22,662 bases of DNA, from positions 1 through 22,662 of the IMG/VR virus record IMGVR_UViG_3300032116_001396; one strand, 5' to 3'. Made by a program: the position numbers and the translations under genes. This DNA is from a virus. The notes below the pieces were generated by a model. The model saw only the letters and a program-made list of their open reading frames with translations. It made no database searches and had not been told where the DNA came from. Shown here one piece after another: positions 3,693-19,499 of the stretch. The stretch's first letter is position 1; each line of letters starts with the position of its first letter.

Positions 3693-4685
3693 ATGAAAAA
3701 TTTACTTTTATCCGAGAGGTGGAGACCAAAAACTATTGAGGATACCATTCTCTTACCAAGAATTAAAAAGCTTTTCGAAAATGGTATTCAACAAAATGTT
3801 ATTTTTTACGGAAATTTTGGTACAGGAAAAACTACCCTTGCTAGGATATTAATAGGTAAATATTCCAAAAACAAACCTTATATTGAACTGAATAGTTCCT
3901 TCTATACTTCAATAGATACTCTAAGAAATAAGATCGATGAGTTCTGTTCTAAAGTTTATATGGGACTTGATTTAGTAGACAATTTACCACAAGACACAAT
4001 AAAATATGTATTTCTCGATGAGTTTGAAAGAACTTCTATTCAATATCAAGATGCTTTGAAAGCTTATATAGAAGAATTTTCGAGAAAAAATGTTAGATTT
4101 ATTCTCACTACGAACCATATCAATAAAGTGAGTCCTGGTATAAGGTCTCGAATGGTAGAAGTTAATTTTGATTGTCTGAATAAAGAGGAAGAAAGGTTTT
4201 TAAAATCTGAAATTTATAAGAAGATTATAAATAAAATCGCTCCTACAGAAAATTTCGAAATAAGTAAAGATAATTTGGTGAAAATTATTAATAAAAAATT
4301 TCCAGATTTTCGTTCCATACTAATTGAGGTTGATCAATTTAGATTGACCGGACACACTACTCAAAGTAACACGACCTCTAATATCAAGGTCAAACAAGAA
4401 TTATATGATTTGATATATGATGAATCAAAAAATTTTGAAGATGTGTACATTTTTTTAATGGAAAATTTCGGACCAGAAAAAATCGATATATTATTGGACT
4501 TATTCGGTAAAAATTTTATTGATTACTCATTGAATGAGAGAAAAGAAAATATACCAAAATTATTTCAAGTATCCTATATCGTCTGTGAACATCAAAAATT
4601 ACTTGAAACTAATACAGATCCAATAATATTGGGCATGACAGTGATTGGTAAAATTAGAGACCTATTTGTCAGAAATAATATATAA
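3693..4685 (+). CDS. 44: T4 gp44-like sliding-clamp loader ATPase
   Basis: This 330-aa AAA+ ATPase corresponds to T4 gp44, which with gp62 loads the gp45 sliding clamp on DNA. In T4 this supports both replication and late transcription. It begins with the typical ERWRPKTIED segment (residues 8-17). Walker A is GNFGTGKTT at 40-48, Walker B is VFLDEFERTS at 106-115, sensor 1 is TTN at 139-141, and the arginine-finger SRC-like motif is SRM at 152-154. Downstream KKFPDFRSILIEVDQF matches T4 KNFPDFRKTIGELDSY. Length is near the T4 protein (319 aa). The S-R-C cysteine is replaced by Met, which leaves the catalytic arginine intact. gp25 follows after three bases, a combination not found in T4. Confidence 0.92.
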   Translation: MKNLLLSERWRPKTIEDTILLPRIKKLFENGIQQNVIFYGNFGTGKTTLARILIGKYSKNKPYIELNSSFYTSIDTLRNKIDEFCSKVYMGLDLVDNLPQDTIKYVFLDEFERTSIQYQDALKAYIEEFSRKNVRFILTTNHINKVSPGIRSRMVEVNFDCLNKEEERFLKSEIYKKIINKIAPTENFEISKDNLVKIINKKFPDFRSILIEVDQFRLTGHTTQSNTTSNIKVKQELYDLIYDESKNFEDVYIFLMENFGPEKIDILLDLFGKNFIDYSLNERKENIPKLFQVSYIVCEHQKLLETNTDPIILGMTVIGKIRDLFVRNNI

Positions 4686-6345: not shown

Positions 6346-6855
6346 TTAATTTCCAACTAATGTGCCCAATAAAAACAAAGATAATGCAGCGAACCCCATA
6401 CTACCACCAAGCAACCATTTTCTTTCTTTATTCAATTGATCTATAACCTTTTCAAAATTTTGTATCTGACCGTCTTGTAATTTTCTTTGTTCATCACACT
6501 TTTTTATATCATTTTCTAAATTTGTAGTCTTTGCTAAATGAGTTTTGATCTCATTATCTTTGTCTATCAAACTTTTTTCGTGTTGTTCTATTAAAAGTTT
6601 ATCTACCAATTGTTTTTGTTCATACTTATTAACAACTACCAAATATCTTTGTAATAGAGTATCACATCCAAGTCTTACATCTTTGAATAAAGATAGTAAA
6701 ACCTCATGGTTGTAGATTTTTTGTACTTGGTCTATAGTGTAGATGACACCTATGGTATCCTCACCTTGAATGTAATACCTTGGATATTCTTCAGATTGAC
6801 CAAATAGATTCGTGGTTGTGACCATCAGGACAATTAAAAAAAAGAACTTTTTCAT
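6346..6855 (-). CDS. Exported coiled-coil protein with C-terminal membrane anchor (spanin-like)
   Basis: The 169-aa protein starts with a clear type I signal peptide, MKKFFFLIVLMVTTTNLFGQ, in the style of flavobacterial exported proteins, with cleavage likely after Gln20. No lipobox cysteine is present. Residues 20-75 include YYIQGEDTIGVIYTIDQVQK. Residues from about 75 to 142 are charged heptads typical of a coiled coil. Residues about 146-168 (LLGGSMGFAALSLFLLGTLV) are a membrane helix. The mature protein would sit in the periplasm, anchored in the inner membrane by its C-terminus. It starts three bases after the stop of another membrane/coiled-coil gene. Together they look like a lysis spanin pair, but the membrane anchoring is not the classic Rz/Rz1 one. 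Confidence 0.6.
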   Translation of the reverse strand: MKKFFFLIVLMVTTTNLFGQSEEYPRYYIQGEDTIGVIYTIDQVQKIYNHEVLLSLFKDVRLGCDTLLQRYLVVVNKYEQKQLVDKLLIEQHEKSLIDKDNEIKTHLAKTTNLENDIKKCDEQRKLQDGQIQNFEKVIDQLNKERKWLLGGSMGFAALSLFLLGTLVGN

Positions 6856-6858
6856 AAT

Positions 6859-7290
6859 TTATTTCAATTTTTCTTTAGTCTTGTCCACCAACTGATTTTT
6901 TGGTAAAATGATTGGCTTCTTCAATAGTTCATCGATTTGTTGATTTCTCTTTTCTAACATTTGATTATACAATTTCAAATTTTCCTTCAAGTCTTTTATT
7001 TCAGTGTCTTTTATTCTTGATAACCTTCTGTAAAAATTTATTGTGTCAGATCTAAAGGAAGCTAATTCTCTCAAACGTTCAAGTTCAGAATCTAAAATTT
7101 TCCTTTCGGTTGATAAAGTCCTTCTTTCTTGTTCAATTTTATCTATTAATTCTTTTTTTTCCAAATTATCTTTTTTAACTTGTTCTATGTCGACTAAATC
7201 TAACGGTCTCAAATAAAACCACAAACAAAGACCAATCAAGATGACAATAACTAAATCTCTGATATTTATTTTAATTTCTTGAGGAATCAT
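6859..7290 (-). CDS. Rz-like membrane-anchored coiled-coil protein (candidate inner-membrane spanin)
   Basis: The 143-aa protein has one N-terminal membrane helix (about residues 11-28, LVIVILIGLCLWFYLRP) and then an almost continuous charged coiled coil to about residue 122. It ends in a Pro/Lys-rich tail (KKPIILPKNQL). This N-in, C-out plan and length fit inner-membrane spanins (Rz), which span the periplasm and help disrupt the outer membrane at lysis. No endolysin or holin is recognised next to it, and a structural or membrane-remodelling role cannot be excluded. It is first in a two-gene unit with the exported coiled-coil gene three bases downstream, and is divergent from clpS across 68 bp with a shared TATATA box. 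Confidence 0.55.
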   Translation of the reverse strand: MIPQEIKINIRDLVIVILIGLCLWFYLRPLDLVDIEQVKKDNLEKKELIDKIEQERRTLSTERKILDSELERLRELASFRSDTINFYRRLSRIKDTEIKDLKENLKLYNQMLEKRNQQIDELLKKPIILPKNQLVDKTKEKLK

Positions 7291-7321: not shown

Positions 7322-7330
7322 TATATATAA
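7322..7330. promoter_or_regulatory. TATATATAA box in the divergent spanin/clpS gap
   Basis: TATATATAA lies 28 bases before the clpS ATG and about 31 bases before the minus-strand start at 7290. Both distances suit a promoter, and the palindromic core could serve either strand. Confidence 0.45.
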
Positions 7331-7358
7331 TAAAAAGATTTTTACTCCACAATAAAAT

Positions 7359-7640
7359 ATGTCTACAATTACCAAATCCAAAACAAGTGAACAACTTGAA
7401 AAAGTTTTAAGTGAACCATTCATTCTGATTCTCCATAATGACGATTTCAATACTTTCGAATGGGTTATCGAATGTCTTGTTAAAATTTGCAAACATGAAC
7501 CGAATCAAGCGTCACAGTGCGCACATATAGTTCATTTTACTGGTAAATGTGATGTAAAGCGCGGCGATCATGAAACAATCATTACGATGTATAATAAATT
7601 GAAAAGCTGTGGATTGAGTGTCACAATGGAAATGTCTTAA
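7359..7640 (+). CDS. clpS: Phage-encoded ClpS adaptor (N-degron recognition)
   Basis: This 93-aa protein is a near full-length ClpS, the adaptor that binds N-terminal destabilising residues and delivers substrates to ClpA/ClpC-ClpP. FILILHNDDFNTFEW (21-35) carries the hallmark HNDD at 26-29. VHFTGKC (58-64) supplies the second pocket residue, His59. The spacing from Asn27 to His59 is 32 residues, the same as Asn34 to His66 in E. coli ClpS, so the N-degron pocket looks intact. The gatekeeper position (Met40 in E. coli) is Phe33. The pattern HNDDxNTF, the cysteines at 39, 44 and 54, and VHxxGKCxVKxG match the Bacteroidota form. No ClpA or ClpP is visible here, so it would use the host protease. 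Its stop overlaps the terminase stop by four bases. Confidence 0.92.
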   Translation: MSTITKSKTSEQLEKVLSEPFILILHNDDFNTFEWVIECLVKICKHEPNQASQCAHIVHFTGKCDVKRGDHETIITMYNKLKSCGLSVTMEMS

Positions 7641-9775
7641 CTCCAAAGATTTCTGGTATTCGATTCTTGATATTGTTGGTACATTTTTCTTTGTCTGCGG
7701 ACATTCAATAATGCTCTGTAGTCAGTAACTTCCTGAAAATCCACATTTTTCAAAAAATCTTTATATTGGCTCAACAAATATGAGTCAAGAATCTTTGGAG
7801 CATAATCCTCAACCATTTCTCTAAACGAATGTTTTGAAAAAACACTACTTGTATTTACTAATGTCATAACACAATCATCATTGCCGATGTCTGCCGCGTA
7901 TCTGATATTTCCCGAAGGAGTGATGTGTTTAACAAAAGTTGTGATTTCTTTTATAGTATCCTCATTATTGATAAGGAAATTTCTTTTGTCCATACAATCC
8001 TGGTAATCCTTAACCAAAATATTTTTATTTTCACCAACTTTCAATCCAATTTTTTCATCAACTGCATCTGCACGATGCTTATATCTGAAAAATACACTTG
8101 AACCATAATTATTTTTACCATCAAAAATATTTGGTAAGTGAGCTAGGAACTCATTACCATAGTTGTTCAATTCTAATACAACTTTGAAATTTTCATAATC
8201 AAAGTACTCAAACAATAAACAATAAAAAACTTCCGCTAATTGTTTAACCGAGACAAGATTTGATCTAAATATACCAATTTGTTCCAAACAAAAAAAGTCC
8301 GAAATATTCGTAAATTTAAACTTATTTTGTTCAATAAACTCCGGACTTTTGGGTGATATTTTGAAAATGTTTATAATCGAATAATCTTGACCCAAACCCT
8401 CTGATATATCAACTGATATGACTCCTTTGATAGACTTTCTCATTATGGGTGAGAATATATCATCATCATCTATCCATTTAAGACCCTCATAAGAAAATTT
8501 AAGTTTCTCGTCGAACTCTGATATTTGCTCAAAGACATAGTTTTTCTTACTGTTGATCAAACTTTCTATAATACTTTCATCGAGTAAAGATCTTGTTGCG
8601 TTGACAAATCTTAAACCATATTCTTGATTGAAAGCATCTTCACCACCTATATCCTTGATTGCCTCTTCTTTCCACGTTGTAACCTCACAAAATGATTGTA
8701 TTGGTACTTCTCTACCATCGTTAAGTTTATATTGAAATGATTTAACCATCTTATCTGAACAATTATCATTATTATAAACATAAATCACATCTTTCATCAA
8801 ATCGGTATTAAACCTCATTTCAACTTTTGTTATTTGGGAATACTCCAAGTCGATTTGTTCAAGAACTTCAGTTTTTGTAACACCAAATTCATGCATTTTA
8901 TGAGCGTTCAATCTCAAGTGAGTCACAAATCTACCGGGAACCTGGTACCAGTAAACCCTTTTAGCTTTGTAATTGTTTTTCAATGGATCTCCATCAGGTC
9001 TTTCTGCATCTGTCAAAAGTTTATAAAACAAATTCATTCCATTTGGGGTAGAGGTTATGACAATTTTCGAATTTTCTACCGCTGATACCACGGGAAATAC
9101 GGCTGTATAGTAAGGTTCTATGATGTTCGAGGGTATGTGAGCAAATTCGTCCAAGTACAAAAAATCAATAGTAAAACCAATAGCTGGTGTTTTGCTCCTC
9201 GCGGCTGATTTTATCCTACACCCATTTTCAAAAATTATTGTTCGTTGGTTCCAGTTTTTCAATCCAACTTTTAAGAAAAACGGAAGTTGTTGATATATGG
9301 ATTTAATCTTATCAATAATTTCTATTGTGGTACCAGCGATATTAGCTACAATCATTATATTCTTGTCATTATTAAAAGTAACATAATGTAACATTGTAAT
9401 TGCCGAATTGATAGTCTTACCTATTTGTCTAGAACCCATCAGGATACTGAATCTATTATTACTATAAAGATCTAATATTTCCTTTTGATATTCTCTCAAT
9501 CTGATGTTTTGGATAGAACCATCTTCGGTTTTGATTCGGCAATATTTTTCAGCAAAATAATGGATATCTAGTTTACACTTGATGTACTCTTGTATCTCAT
9601 CTTCAGTCATCTTAAAGGTGATGCCTGATTTACGTAAACCTACTTCACTAGAAAACCAAGGATTTTGAAACCTTTTTATTACAACACCATCGTTTATTTT
9701 TGAAGTGACTTCTTCGACGAGTTTGGTTGTAAAAATGAATTTCCTCTCGTCTTCCTTTTGTTTTTGTTGAGCCAT
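7637..9775 (-). CDS. 17: Large terminase (T4 gp17-like packaging motor)
   Basis: The 712-aa protein is the ATPase-nuclease that pumps DNA into proheads and cuts concatemers. Walker A is GSRQIGKT at 114-121, Walker B with catalytic glutamate is LYLDEFAH near 205-212, and the coupling motif STPNG is at 241-245. The nuclease domain has SVDISEGLGQDY (first metal Asp at D456), a central LELNNYGNEF segment, and a DIGNDDCVMTLVN segment with the third acidic cluster. The upstream DVIYVYNNDN-type region and the FNQEYGLRFV motif are also typical of T4-like terminases. It is about 100 residues longer than T4 gp17 (610 aa), spread through the protein. It is convergent with clpS and divergent from a possible small terminase. 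Confidence 0.95.
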   Translation of the reverse strand: MAQQKQKEDERKFIFTTKLVEEVTSKINDGVVIKRFQNPWFSSEVGLRKSGITFKMTEDEIQEYIKCKLDIHYFAEKYCRIKTEDGSIQNIRLREYQKEILDLYSNNRFSILMGSRQIGKTINSAITMLHYVTFNNDKNIMIVANIAGTTIEIIDKIKSIYQQLPFFLKVGLKNWNQRTIIFENGCRIKSAARSKTPAIGFTIDFLYLDEFAHIPSNIIEPYYTAVFPVVSAVENSKIVITSTPNGMNLFYKLLTDAERPDGDPLKNNYKAKRVYWYQVPGRFVTHLRLNAHKMHEFGVTKTEVLEQIDLEYSQITKVEMRFNTDLMKDVIYVYNNDNCSDKMVKSFQYKLNDGREVPIQSFCEVTTWKEEAIKDIGGEDAFNQEYGLRFVNATRSLLDESIIESLINSKKNYVFEQISEFDEKLKFSYEGLKWIDDDDIFSPIMRKSIKGVISVDISEGLGQDYSIINIFKISPKSPEFIEQNKFKFTNISDFFCLEQIGIFRSNLVSVKQLAEVFYCLLFEYFDYENFKVVLELNNYGNEFLAHLPNIFDGKNNYGSSVFFRYKHRADAVDEKIGLKVGENKNILVKDYQDCMDKRNFLINNEDTIKEITTFVKHITPSGNIRYAADIGNDDCVMTLVNTSSVFSKHSFREMVEDYAPKILDSYLLSQYKDFLKNVDFQEVTDYRALLNVRRQRKMYQQYQESNTRNLWS

Positions 9776-15572: not shown

Positions 15573-18500
15573 ATGGCAATTCAAATCGGTAAATACAAAA
15601 GACCTGGTATCTTTGTAGAAGAATTCGATGCATCGGTAATAACCTCACCCGCAATCACTGGTGGATTAGTATCTTTAGTTATGGGTTTTTCCAAAAAGGG
15701 ACCTGTCAATACACCAGTGCTTTTACAAAATGTAAGAGACTTGGAAAATATCTTCGGAACACTCGATAGAAACCTCGAAAGAAAAGGTTCTTTCTTTCAT
15801 AGAACTATTTCAAAATTATTGGAATCTAGTCCAGTATATGCAATAAATCTTATGCTTACATCCGACACTTTGGATCAAATTGAGTATCAATCTGTATCTA
15901 CAAGATCTGATGCATCTAATGATGTGAAAAGATTAGGACCATACAGAAGGTTTTTCAACACAACTGGTTTCTGGAAACGTGATACCGAAACATTCAATAA
16001 CCTTGTAAAAGACGATCCAGGAGCTTCTGGTAGACTTTTAGCATTCACTAACCTATCCGATAGATATGTCACAATGTTTATTTTCAAAGCCGCTAATACA
16101 TTTGGTTTCGATAGAAGCTTATTGGAAGCGTATGGTACTGCTGAAAAGGTACCTTTGTACCTAAATCCTTTAGATTATGCTTCTGATTATTTAGTCGATG
16201 TTTTAATTGTTACTGGTGATTGGACTAATTACGGTGAATTAGCTGTCGACACTAAATGGGCTCAATATTTCACACCGGAAGGTTTGAGAAAAAATAAAGT
16301 TCGTGATTTTGCTAATGACAGAAATATCACACTACTGAATTTCTATGAGGGGATTTCTCTCATTCCATATTTCAAAGATGCTAATGGTAGAAATATCTTT
16401 ATCGAAAACGTCATAAATGATGATACAGATTCTACTGGGGTATTTTGTACTTTTGATGTAGATAAATTCGAAGGAGATTTTCCAAATGGTATGGTTGATA
16501 TCATTGGAAATAACCTTGTCGTGAATAACTCACTTGTTGATACAGAACAAGAAACAATCAAGTTCTTATCTTATGAGGAAACCATCGCTGAAACAAACGT
16601 TCTATCACATACTCAATTAGATGCTGCTGGAGGTACAATAGGCCAACAAGTTATTGCTTTCGGTCCTACTATTTCTACATTCAATGGTGCTGCTTGGGGT
16701 GGATTGGGAAGTCCTAATAGAACCGCACTTTTGAGAGAAGGATTTATAAATGGTGTATCCTATACACCTGGTATATCGGACTTTGGTAGCACTTCTTCTT
16801 TTACAATTGGATTTACTACTATCGCTCCAAGTTCAAAGGATGGTTCTCCATCTACTTGGGGACCTTATTGTGTAATAGGTGGTGAACAAAAATTCATCAA
16901 TAGTGGTTCCGCATCAACTTTTACTTATTCGATTCCAAGGACCAATTACGAAACAGTTACCGGAACCGCGGGTCATATTTCAGTCGCGTATGTAGATGCA
17001 AGTACTGGAAATATTGCGGTCAAGAATTCGACCGCAGGTTCACCTAACACCCAACCACAAATCGGAATCAACGATTTGGTTTTGGGATATTTGAGTTTCA
17101 CCGTAAGTAATGGATATCTTGTTGCTAATCAATATTCTTGGACTAGTGTTGGTATATTTGGTACCTCTGGGGACCCTAAAGAATTTACACTTGGTACTTA
17201 CAGTACAAATGATTATACCATAACAACTACTGGTTTACCAGCTGGTTCTTTTAAACTTGAATTCAACGAAACGAGTCAAGCTAATTTGAATGGTGGTAGT
17301 TTGGGCAATTATGATAGACACAGAAAGATTGACATCTTTAATAAGATACTCAGTATTTTGGATTCTTCTGATTCAGAGCAGTCTACGATGATAGTGAACT
17401 ATGCAACAGGTGAAAAGTATTCAGGTGAAAACATAACTATTTCATCTGTAGTCAATACCACATCATCTAATAAGAGTCTTGTAATAAATTTGGGGACATC
17501 ATCAGTACCACAAGACATTCTTGCCGGTAATTTTACTTTGTATAAAAAAGATAATGAATTCACATTGGGTGAATATGGAGCACAGGGTGGGGTTGCTGAA
17601 GGATTCGGTAATACAGGATCTATAGGAAAATATTCAGATACTTATTTAGCTTATCAAAATGGTCAAATAAACACTGGCGATTGGTTCTATCAAAACGCTT
17701 GTACACTACCGGTTACTAAAATTACATTTACAAGAGAATCTGGATATGATATTATAGTTTTCTCACCTAACACAAATAACATCTTCGGTGGTGTTTCAGC
17801 AGAAAAAACATTTAGAATACCGAGTTCTATCTATAATTCTGGAATATTCGAAATATCCGGATCCACAACATCCACAATGATAACAGATCCTATAACTGGA
17901 ACATACTTCGTTTCGGGTGAGGCTTTCACTATCAACAGTGACTTGGTAACACCAGAAACACTATATGATGTTTCTAGGATAGAAGATACGTCAGAAAAGG
18001 TTTATCTCGATATGCAATTTAGTCCTAGTGGTGATATGGATTTAAGATTCACCGATTATACATTAGACTCTCCAAATGATATTCGTATAACAAATGATGG
18101 ATTGGATAATAAAGATGGTAGGTTGAGAGTTCGTTCCGATAAGTCTAATTATAAACAAACAATCGAAATCGAAGTTCCTGCAGGTTATACACCGGTAGCT
18201 AATAAAATTCTAATAAACGCCGCTAGATATACCGAACTAAAAGTTGGTGATTATCTACAAGCAGCTGTCGATGAGACTATATTGGAAAATGGACAAATGC
18301 CTAAAAAATTAGCAAGGATCCAAAGAAAAAGAGCTTATGCTCCAGACCCAACTTTAGTTGAAATTAGTTGTGATGTGTCCATAAATAAGGTTTCAAGAAG
18401 AGGCGATCTACAAACATTGAGATATGTTCCTATTACAGATTTTGCTTCCACTTATAAAGGTATTTCAATGAAAGGTTTTAGAGTAAGAGAAGACTCAATG

Positions 18501-19499
18501 CCTGATGGTACAGAAGAGAGACAAAACGCAATACTAAATTTAGTCGCTCAAGGAACTTCACTTTACGGAGCATTAGTGAACAAAGAAGCATTTGACTTCA
18601 GATATCTAGTAGATTCTTTTGGTCTCGGACTGACAGAAAGGTCCAAACAACAATTGGTTGACATTTGTGGAGAAAGATTAGATGCTATGGGTATACTTAA
18701 TATGCCATCAAACAAAATGTTCAGAGATTCAACCGCTGTAACCTTCACAGATGACGAGGGAGTTGTACAAACATCTTTCATTGCACAAGGTGGAGATCCA
18801 GAATCAAATCCAGCATTCCTTTATTCATTCGGTGACGGTAAAGGTGCAAGTTGTGTCGGATATTTCTATCCATATGTGACAGTAAATGATAATGGTAGAC
18901 CAGTTAATGTTCCACCAGCTGCTTATGTAGCGACAACTTACTTAAGAAAACAAAATTCTGCACTTACTACGATTACACCTTGGACAATTGCCGCTGGTGT
19001 CACTAACGGTAGAGTAACTAATATTGCTGGAGTTGAGGTTAATTTCTCTCCAACAGATATAGAAAACCTCAATGGAGCTCAAATCAATCCGATTGTATTT
19101 AAGAGAAACAGAGGTTTTGTTATCGAGACTGAAAATACTGGTCAAACCCTTTACAAATCAGCTCTTTCTTACCTACACGTTAGAGAAGTTCTTATTGAAC
19201 TTGAAAGAGAATTATCTGCAATGTTGTTGGAATTCCAGTGGAGATTCAATACCGCTGATGTTAGAGCTGAAATCAAATTAAGAGCTGATAGTATTTGTGA
19301 AAAATATGTTAATAGAAATGGTCTATACAACTACTTCAACAAGTGTGATGAAGAGAACAACACACCAGAAATCATCGATAATCAAATCGGTGTACTCGAC
19401 ACATACGTTGAACCGATTAAGGGTATGGGAATCATTGTAAATAACATAACTATACTACGTACTGGAGCAATCCAAGCTGGTGGATTTATCCAATCATAA
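15573..19499 (+). CDS. 18: Oversized tail sheath protein (T4 gp18-like)
   Basis: The 1308-aa protein is the contractile sheath subunit. The N-terminus has KYKRPGIFVEEFDAS and a domain with VSLVMGFSKKGPVNTPVLLQ and LENIFGTLDR (T4 GIELKETTVQS, AALAGKFQWGP, LVNTFG). The C-terminal portion from about residue 940 is strongly sheath-like, with the late segments VLIELERELSAMLLEFQWRF and CDEENNTPEIIDNQIGVLDT (T4 CDTTNNTPSVIDRNEFVATF). T4 gp18 has 659 residues. The extra length lies mainly at about 345-850, which is Gly/Ser/Thr-rich and beta-strand-rich, as expected of domains on the outside of the sheath. The coding frame is continuous, so this is not an assembly fusion of two genes. A strong terminator follows. 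Confidence 0.93.
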   Translation: MAIQIGKYKRPGIFVEEFDASVITSPAITGGLVSLVMGFSKKGPVNTPVLLQNVRDLENIFGTLDRNLERKGSFFHRTISKLLESSPVYAINLMLTSDTLDQIEYQSVSTRSDASNDVKRLGPYRRFFNTTGFWKRDTETFNNLVKDDPGASGRLLAFTNLSDRYVTMFIFKAANTFGFDRSLLEAYGTAEKVPLYLNPLDYASDYLVDVLIVTGDWTNYGELAVDTKWAQYFTPEGLRKNKVRDFANDRNITLLNFYEGISLIPYFKDANGRNIFIENVINDDTDSTGVFCTFDVDKFEGDFPNGMVDIIGNNLVVNNSLVDTEQETIKFLSYEETIAETNVLSHTQLDAAGGTIGQQVIAFGPTISTFNGAAWGGLGSPNRTALLREGFINGVSYTPGISDFGSTSSFTIGFTTIAPSSKDGSPSTWGPYCVIGGEQKFINSGSASTFTYSIPRTNYETVTGTAGHISVAYVDASTGNIAVKNSTAGSPNTQPQIGINDLVLGYLSFTVSNGYLVANQYSWTSVGIFGTSGDPKEFTLGTYSTNDYTITTTGLPAGSFKLEFNETSQANLNGGSLGNYDRHRKIDIFNKILSILDSSDSEQSTMIVNYATGEKYSGENITISSVVNTTSSNKSLVINLGTSSVPQDILAGNFTLYKKDNEFTLGEYGAQGGVAEGFGNTGSIGKYSDTYLAYQNGQINTGDWFYQNACTLPVTKITFTRESGYDIIVFSPNTNNIFGGVSAEKTFRIPSSIYNSGIFEISGSTTSTMITDPITGTYFVSGEAFTINSDLVTPETLYDVSRIEDTSEKVYLDMQFSPSGDMDLRFTDYTLDSPNDIRITNDGLDNKDGRLRVRSDKSNYKQTIEIEVPAGYTPVANKILINAARYTELKVGDYLQAAVDETILENGQMPKKLARIQRKRAYAPDPTLVEISCDVSINKVSRRGDLQTLRYVPITDFASTYKGISMKGFRVREDSMPDGTEERQNAILNLVAQGTSLYGALVNKEAFDFRYLVDSFGLGLTERSKQQLVDICGERLDAMGILNMPSNKMFRDSTAVTFTDDEGVVQTSFIAQGGDPESNPAFLYSFGDGKGASCVGYFYPYVTVNDNGRPVNVPPAAYVATTYLRKQNSALTTITPWTIAAGVTNGRVTNIAGVEVNFSPTDIENLNGAQINPIVFKRNRGFVIETENTGQTLYKSALSYLHVREVLIELERELSAMLLEFQWRFNTADVRAEIKLRADSICEKYVNRNGLYNYFNKCDEENNTPEIIDNQIGVLDTYVEPIKGMGIIVNNITILRTGAIQAGGFIQS

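Follow-up and report, generated by a model that had tools for sequence, protein, structure and literature searches.

Positions 7359 to 7640 of the viral DNA analysed here (22,662 nucleotides, referred to as the window) raise the question of why a phage would encode its own ClpS, an adaptor of bacterial proteolysis, beside its terminase gene, and which Clp protease such an adaptor would serve. The original prediction, made from the letters alone, had proposed a stand-alone N-degron adaptor with an intact recognition pocket in a T4-like phage, captured from Bacteroidota, and had named a profile search, a phylogeny and a structure prediction as checks. The 22.7-kb record is probably a fragment.

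The clpS gene, its product and its neighbours

The following features of the window are relevant:
7359..7640, + strand: clpS, ATG-to-TAA open reading frame of 93 aa (Pfam, AF2, Foldseek)
7359..7418, + strand: N-terminal extension of ClpS, residues 1-20, low-confidence model (pLDDT 54-61)
7437..7457, + strand: pocket segment N27 D28 D29 F30 N31 T32 F33, corresponding to E. coli Asn34-Met40, with gatekeeper F33
7521..7535, + strand: pocket segment A55 H56 I57 V58 H59, corresponding to E. coli Met62-His66; A55 and H59 in 52/52 phages
7614..7616, + strand: pocket residue L86, aligned with E. coli Leu99; 52/52 phages
7322..7331, + strand: promoter-like box TATATATAAT, 5' of clpS inside the 68-bp divergent gap
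7637..9775, - strand: terminase large subunit (TerL), Pfam Terminase_6N 7e-22, convergent with clpS, 4-bp overlap
6859..7290, - strand: 143-aa divergent neighbour of clpS, N-terminal hydrophobic segment and coiled coil by eye
15573-19499: tail sheath (Pfam/PHROG matches)
3693-4685: clamp loader (Pfam/PHROG matches)
195-698: gp4-like head closure (Pfam/PHROG matches)
1017-1382, - strand: gp55-like late sigma factor (Pfam/PHROG matches)

The product of 7359-7640 is a genuine ClpS and folds as ClpS. It matched Pfam PF02617 (ClpS) with 59.3 bits over residues 19-83, well above the cut-off of 23 (E 3.2e-16), PHROG 27368 matched as well, and phmmer retrieved ClpS chains from the PDB. The AF2 model has a mean pLDDT of 82.9 with a confident core of about 90 or more, and the top Foldseek matches to it were all ClpS, with E values down to 2e-07. 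Superposition on several solved ClpS chains, including peptide-bound E. coli, mycobacterial and Caulobacter ones, gave rmsd values of 1.0-1.2 Å, so that profile search and structure prediction both bear out the predicted identity. An N-terminal extension, which ClpS requires for delivery, is present with 20 residues, and its length and an M-x-T-I start are conserved among the phage ClpS copies. A chance reading frame is contradicted by the relatives encoded in 193 IMG/VR stretches and by a median dN/dS of 0.18 for phage clpS, which indicates purifying selection.

Pocket residues were taken as defined from the Caulobacter ClpS structure (PMC12493166). The HNDD motif consists of H26-N27-D28-D29, and H59 follows N27 by 32 residues, which is the spacing of Asn34 and His66 in E. 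coli ClpS that had been read from the letters. In the alignment with the E. coli protein, N27, D28 and D29 correspond to Asn34, Asp35 and Asp36, N31 to Thr38, F33 to Met40, V36 to Val43, A55 to Met62, V58 to Val65, H59 to His66 and L86 to Leu99. The alpha-amino contacts (N27, D29 and H59) are all present with correct spacing, as are, by residues, the hydrophobic specificity pocket and its gatekeeper (L25, F33, V36, A55, V58 and L86). Among 52 distinct phage ClpS sequences N27, D28, F33, V36, A55, H59 and L86 are invariant and D29 is kept in 50, confirming an intact and nearly invariant pocket.

The gatekeeper is indeed Phe (F33) where E. coli ClpS has Met40, but the shift in residue preference attached to this exchange gains no evidence as a phage-specific one. 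Phe was found in 29/29 readable ClpS of a sample from the phylum Bacteroidota, counted in an HMM-selected set, as an earlier survey had been pattern-selected and was partly circular. The Phe gatekeeper therefore predates the phage, and its interpretation as a phage adaptation is ruled out. Ala at the position of E. coli Met62 occurs in 52/52 phages versus 6/29 of the sampled Bacteroidota ClpS, and may enlarge the pocket of the phage protein. Glu79 and Lys84, which contact ClpA in E. coli, are replaced by D70 and I75 in the window ClpS; they are uninformative as a docking test, being unconserved even in Bacteroidota ClpS.

The Terminase_6N, tail sheath, clamp loader, gp4-like and gp55-like genes place the window phage in the T4-like contractile-tail type, and the overlap with TerL agrees with the predicted position beside the terminase. 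The clpS gene is a lone plus-strand unit, convergent with TerL and divergent from the 143-aa gene, whose product had no match in Pfam or PHROG. The product of 6346-6855 (- strand), also near clpS, showed a weak resemblance to XhlA below the cut-off; together with the product of 6859-7290 (- strand) it makes up a pair of small membrane-type coiled-coil proteins, possibly encoded by lysis or membrane genes. The tail sheath frame, with 1308 aa, is far above the T4 sheath in length, and the sheath domain was matched in its C-terminal part only.

Of the 22 window genes, 16 are preceded by TATATA at no more than 50 bp, as compared with 4.7% of random 50-mers containing it, which makes the box a probable phage promoter element; the reading is kept cautious because the intergenic DNA is AT-rich. 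Some of the boxes, between divergent genes (TerL and a 205-aa gene), are palindromic.

Distribution and descent of the phage gene

The description of a stand-alone copy was an understatement: across a large phage clade clpS belongs to the core genes and keeps its synteny, and large members of the clade add ClpP and a ClpC lacking the N-domain. In 78 of the best 80 of the 193 stretches, a relative of the window TerL lies beside clpS. An independent start from TerL led to ClpS in 63/63 loci with at least 2 kb of flank beyond TerL; the two genes are convergent in 61 of these (median gap 86 bp) and rearranged in 2. One terminase locus (L214), taken as ClpS-less, carries ClpS further along the same contig after rearrangement. 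The distances of TerL and ClpS co-vary over 48 loci (Mantel r 0.69, 0/2000 permutations as high).

In a tree of 52 phage and 77 bacterial ClpS, the phage sequences form one group among those of Bacteroidota (SH-aLRT 94), in line with the proposed origin; the tree is built on 77 columns only, with deep branches poorly separated and a bacterial set picked for similarity. Judged by synteny, tree and the co-variation of TerL with ClpS, the phage gene was captured once, long ago, from Bacteroidota ClpS and has since been passed down as a core gene along with the terminase region. A moron or recent capture with patchy occurrence is ruled out by the synteny (63/63) and the co-variation. The lineage carrying terminase-linked clpS is one of T4-like jumbo phages and megaphages, and a Bacteroidota host is inferred for the window phage.

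Two side observations were made on these loci. The ClpS of megaphage LR756504 (L254) lies on a different branch of Bacteroidota ClpS and represents a separate capture. In L219, L220, L225-L228, L232, L243 and L245, extra sequence of about 0.7 kb or more lengthens or shifts the TerL match, which suggests that the terminase gene contains an intein or intron.

ClpC and ClpP in the large relatives

Profile searches of 21 long relatives detected ClpP in 6 and a Clp-type AAA_2 ATPase in 3, and 11 further related records contained the ATPase in 5 and ClpP in 4. The catalytic Ser motif was present in 13/16 phage ClpP frames checked. The Clp_N profile had no match in these 32 related records (21 + 11) and matched five unrelated phages; as this search missed B. 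subtilis in the control set, a diverged N-domain could escape it. In the phage ClpC frames themselves, however, only a short linker precedes AAA-1.

The six intact ATPases (G018, G019, G024, G025, LR745206 and LR756502) are ClpC proteins of 701-711 aa, the N-domain-less loci being L249, L250, L255, L256, L259 and L260. All of them begin shortly behind an in-frame stop, inside the acidic linker found after the N-domain of host ClpC. AAA-1, the UVR motif of the M-domain, AAA-2 and the VGF loop, known from ClpC as a ClpP-docking loop, are kept in 6/6, and the N-domain is gone. In the ClpC tree the six proteins group as a single clade adjoining Bacteroidota ClpC (SH-aLRT 99), and the L249 protein shares 63-71% identity with its best matches among host ClpC. 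The frames of these host ClpC span 837-868 aa in 14 of 15 ClpS-bearing genomes and are split over contigs in the remaining one, and the two host ClpC tested carry two Clp_N stretches apiece. Since the phage clade adjoins Bacteroidota ClpC and full-length host proteins carry Clp_N, loss of the N-domain on the phage side is the most likely course. On the host side, ClpS is present in 146/148 genomes of the phylum Bacteroidota.

The six large records with an intact ClpC (G018, G019, G024, G025, W01 and W02) combine ClpS with a ClpC devoid of the N-domain, and five of them also encode ClpP. The distance between ClpC and ClpS is 217-247 kb in 6/7 records; short contigs, the window included, therefore cannot show ClpC, and the idea that its absence or that of ClpP from short records reflects loss was dropped. 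ClpC lies downstream of ClpS on the same strand in G018, G019 and G024 as against upstream on the opposite strand, at a similar distance, in LR745206, LR756502 and G025, which suggests large symmetrical inversions. In a 464-kb record (G014, L251), a ClpC fragment opens with an intein-like sequence at the second Walker A motif (ending ...LLSHN before TQLAKVL). A Leu/Phe-transferase (PF03588) was found in none of the 21 related records, many of which are fragments.

The combination of ClpS with ClpP and N-domain-less ClpC in jumbo and megaphage relatives is apparently a new partner arrangement, and the open-access literature, to which the search was confined, yielded no description of such a system for this lineage.

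Possible modes of action and comparison with known systems

We hold with moderate confidence that the window ClpS is an N-degron adaptor that docks on host ClpC and directs N-degron proteins to host ClpC-ClpP. By fold and residues, its pocket would bind the exposed N-terminal residue of substrates. During infection the protein would dock on the N-domain of host ClpC, and proteins bearing N-degrons would be passed to host ClpC-ClpP. The promoter-like box common to clpS and virion genes suggests their co-expression, and in the largest relatives the phage supplies its own ClpP and N-domain-less ClpC. ClpS of these relatives must act via host ClpC, mixed rings or another contact, because the phage ClpC is devoid of the usual dock. 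An adaptor role in phages is supported by unrelated jumbo phages, in which ClpS is accompanied by a phage ClpA that has the N-domain. Against this reading stand the ClpS that the hosts already possess and the absence of a Leu/Phe-transferase from the 21 related records, many of them fragmentary.

It is unlikely that phage ClpS mainly fills the N-domains of host ClpC, excluding other adaptors and non-N-degron substrates and sparing phage proteins, while the N-domain-less ClpC and phage ClpP of the large relatives, blind to ClpS, keep working. Such a role would suit the absence of the N-domain from 6/6 intact phage ClpC, which do retain the two AAA+ modules along with UVR motif and VGF loop, and the 0/32 result for Clp_N in related records, given that five unrelated phages match in the same search. 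It would also accord with the inhibition by ClpS of the use of SsrA substrates and with the indifference to ClpS of Leptospira ClpA when its N-domain is missing (PMC12493166), yet a pure blocker would not need the pocket that is conserved here. Quite unlikely, in turn, is an uncoupling of the Clp halves, in which core ClpS would seize or saturate host ClpC via its N-domain, phage ClpC without this domain could not be seized, and, with the phage's own ClpP, proteolysis would move from host to phage control.

That ClpS docks on a phage ClpC devoid of the N-domain, through a different surface or in rings mixed with host ClpC, is very unlikely: the two co-occur in the six large records, five with ClpP, but known ClpS docking requires the N-domain (PMC12493166), the genes are 217-247 kb apart in 6/7 records, and no ClpC was seen in smaller relatives, though fragments could miss it. 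A role in virion assembly, with ClpS acting on packaging or head proteins, for instance by clearing fragments that the prohead protease releases or by regulating terminase, is highly improbable despite the conserved TerL adjacency, the TATATA box in common with virion genes and the placement of ClpS elsewhere in unrelated jumbo phages, since adjacency may persist through descent alone and TerL and clpS, lying on opposite strands, are not one operon.

That a widespread giant-phage lineage keeps an adaptor of proteolysis as a core gene implies a central part for the steering of bacterial proteolysis when these phages infect. Whether host Clp is taken over or replaced by phages can be tested directly on the combination of ClpS with a dock-less phage ClpC. 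Few viral N-degron readers are known, and the window ClpS is small and easy to assay.

The window protein shares with Bacteroidota ClpS the fold, the length and the pocket residues including the gatekeeper Phe, and many of these bacterial proteins have the HNDD form; the nearest bacterial relatives reach about 54-61% identity over the matched part. The phage copy differs in being phage-borne and terminase-linked, in its fixed Ala at the Met62 position and M-x-T-I start, and in forming its own clade. With E. coli and Caulobacter ClpS it has in common the fold and the Asn/Asp/His contacts to the N-terminus, while Phe instead of the gatekeeper Met, Ala instead of Met62 and unconserved ClpA-contact residues distinguish it from the E. 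coli protein.

Phage ClpS as such is already known from other jumbo phages. Iyer, Burroughs and Aravind (2021, PMC7824862) proposed that the ClpS of jumbo phages recruits targets for host ClpAP, Atu_ph07 carries ClpS along with several Clp proteins (PMC6102473), and tblastn with E. coli ClpS retrieved 22 phage records. Moraphages are large T4-like phages linked to Bacteroidota, and a Clp ATPase is among their core VOGs (PMC12619734); the passages considered on moraphages, LR756502 and LR745206 make no mention of ClpS (PMC12619734, PMC9723777). By their ClpS, the megaphages LR745206 and LR756502 are members of the window's clade.

Other jumbo phages (PA5oct, Atu_ph07, GAP32, Phosso, Kaldavass and Vibrio 2.275.O) have a ClpS that is more distant in sequence and differs in neighbourhood. 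In six of the 22 records, from unrelated jumbo phages, clpS lies among genes of stress response, nucleotide metabolism or translation, such as those for small heat-shock protein, thymidine kinase, IF-3 or ClpX. Five of the six unrelated ClpS phages encode ClpA with Clp_N, so that adaptor and dock are both phage-made, in contrast to the present clade, whose ClpC is without the dock.
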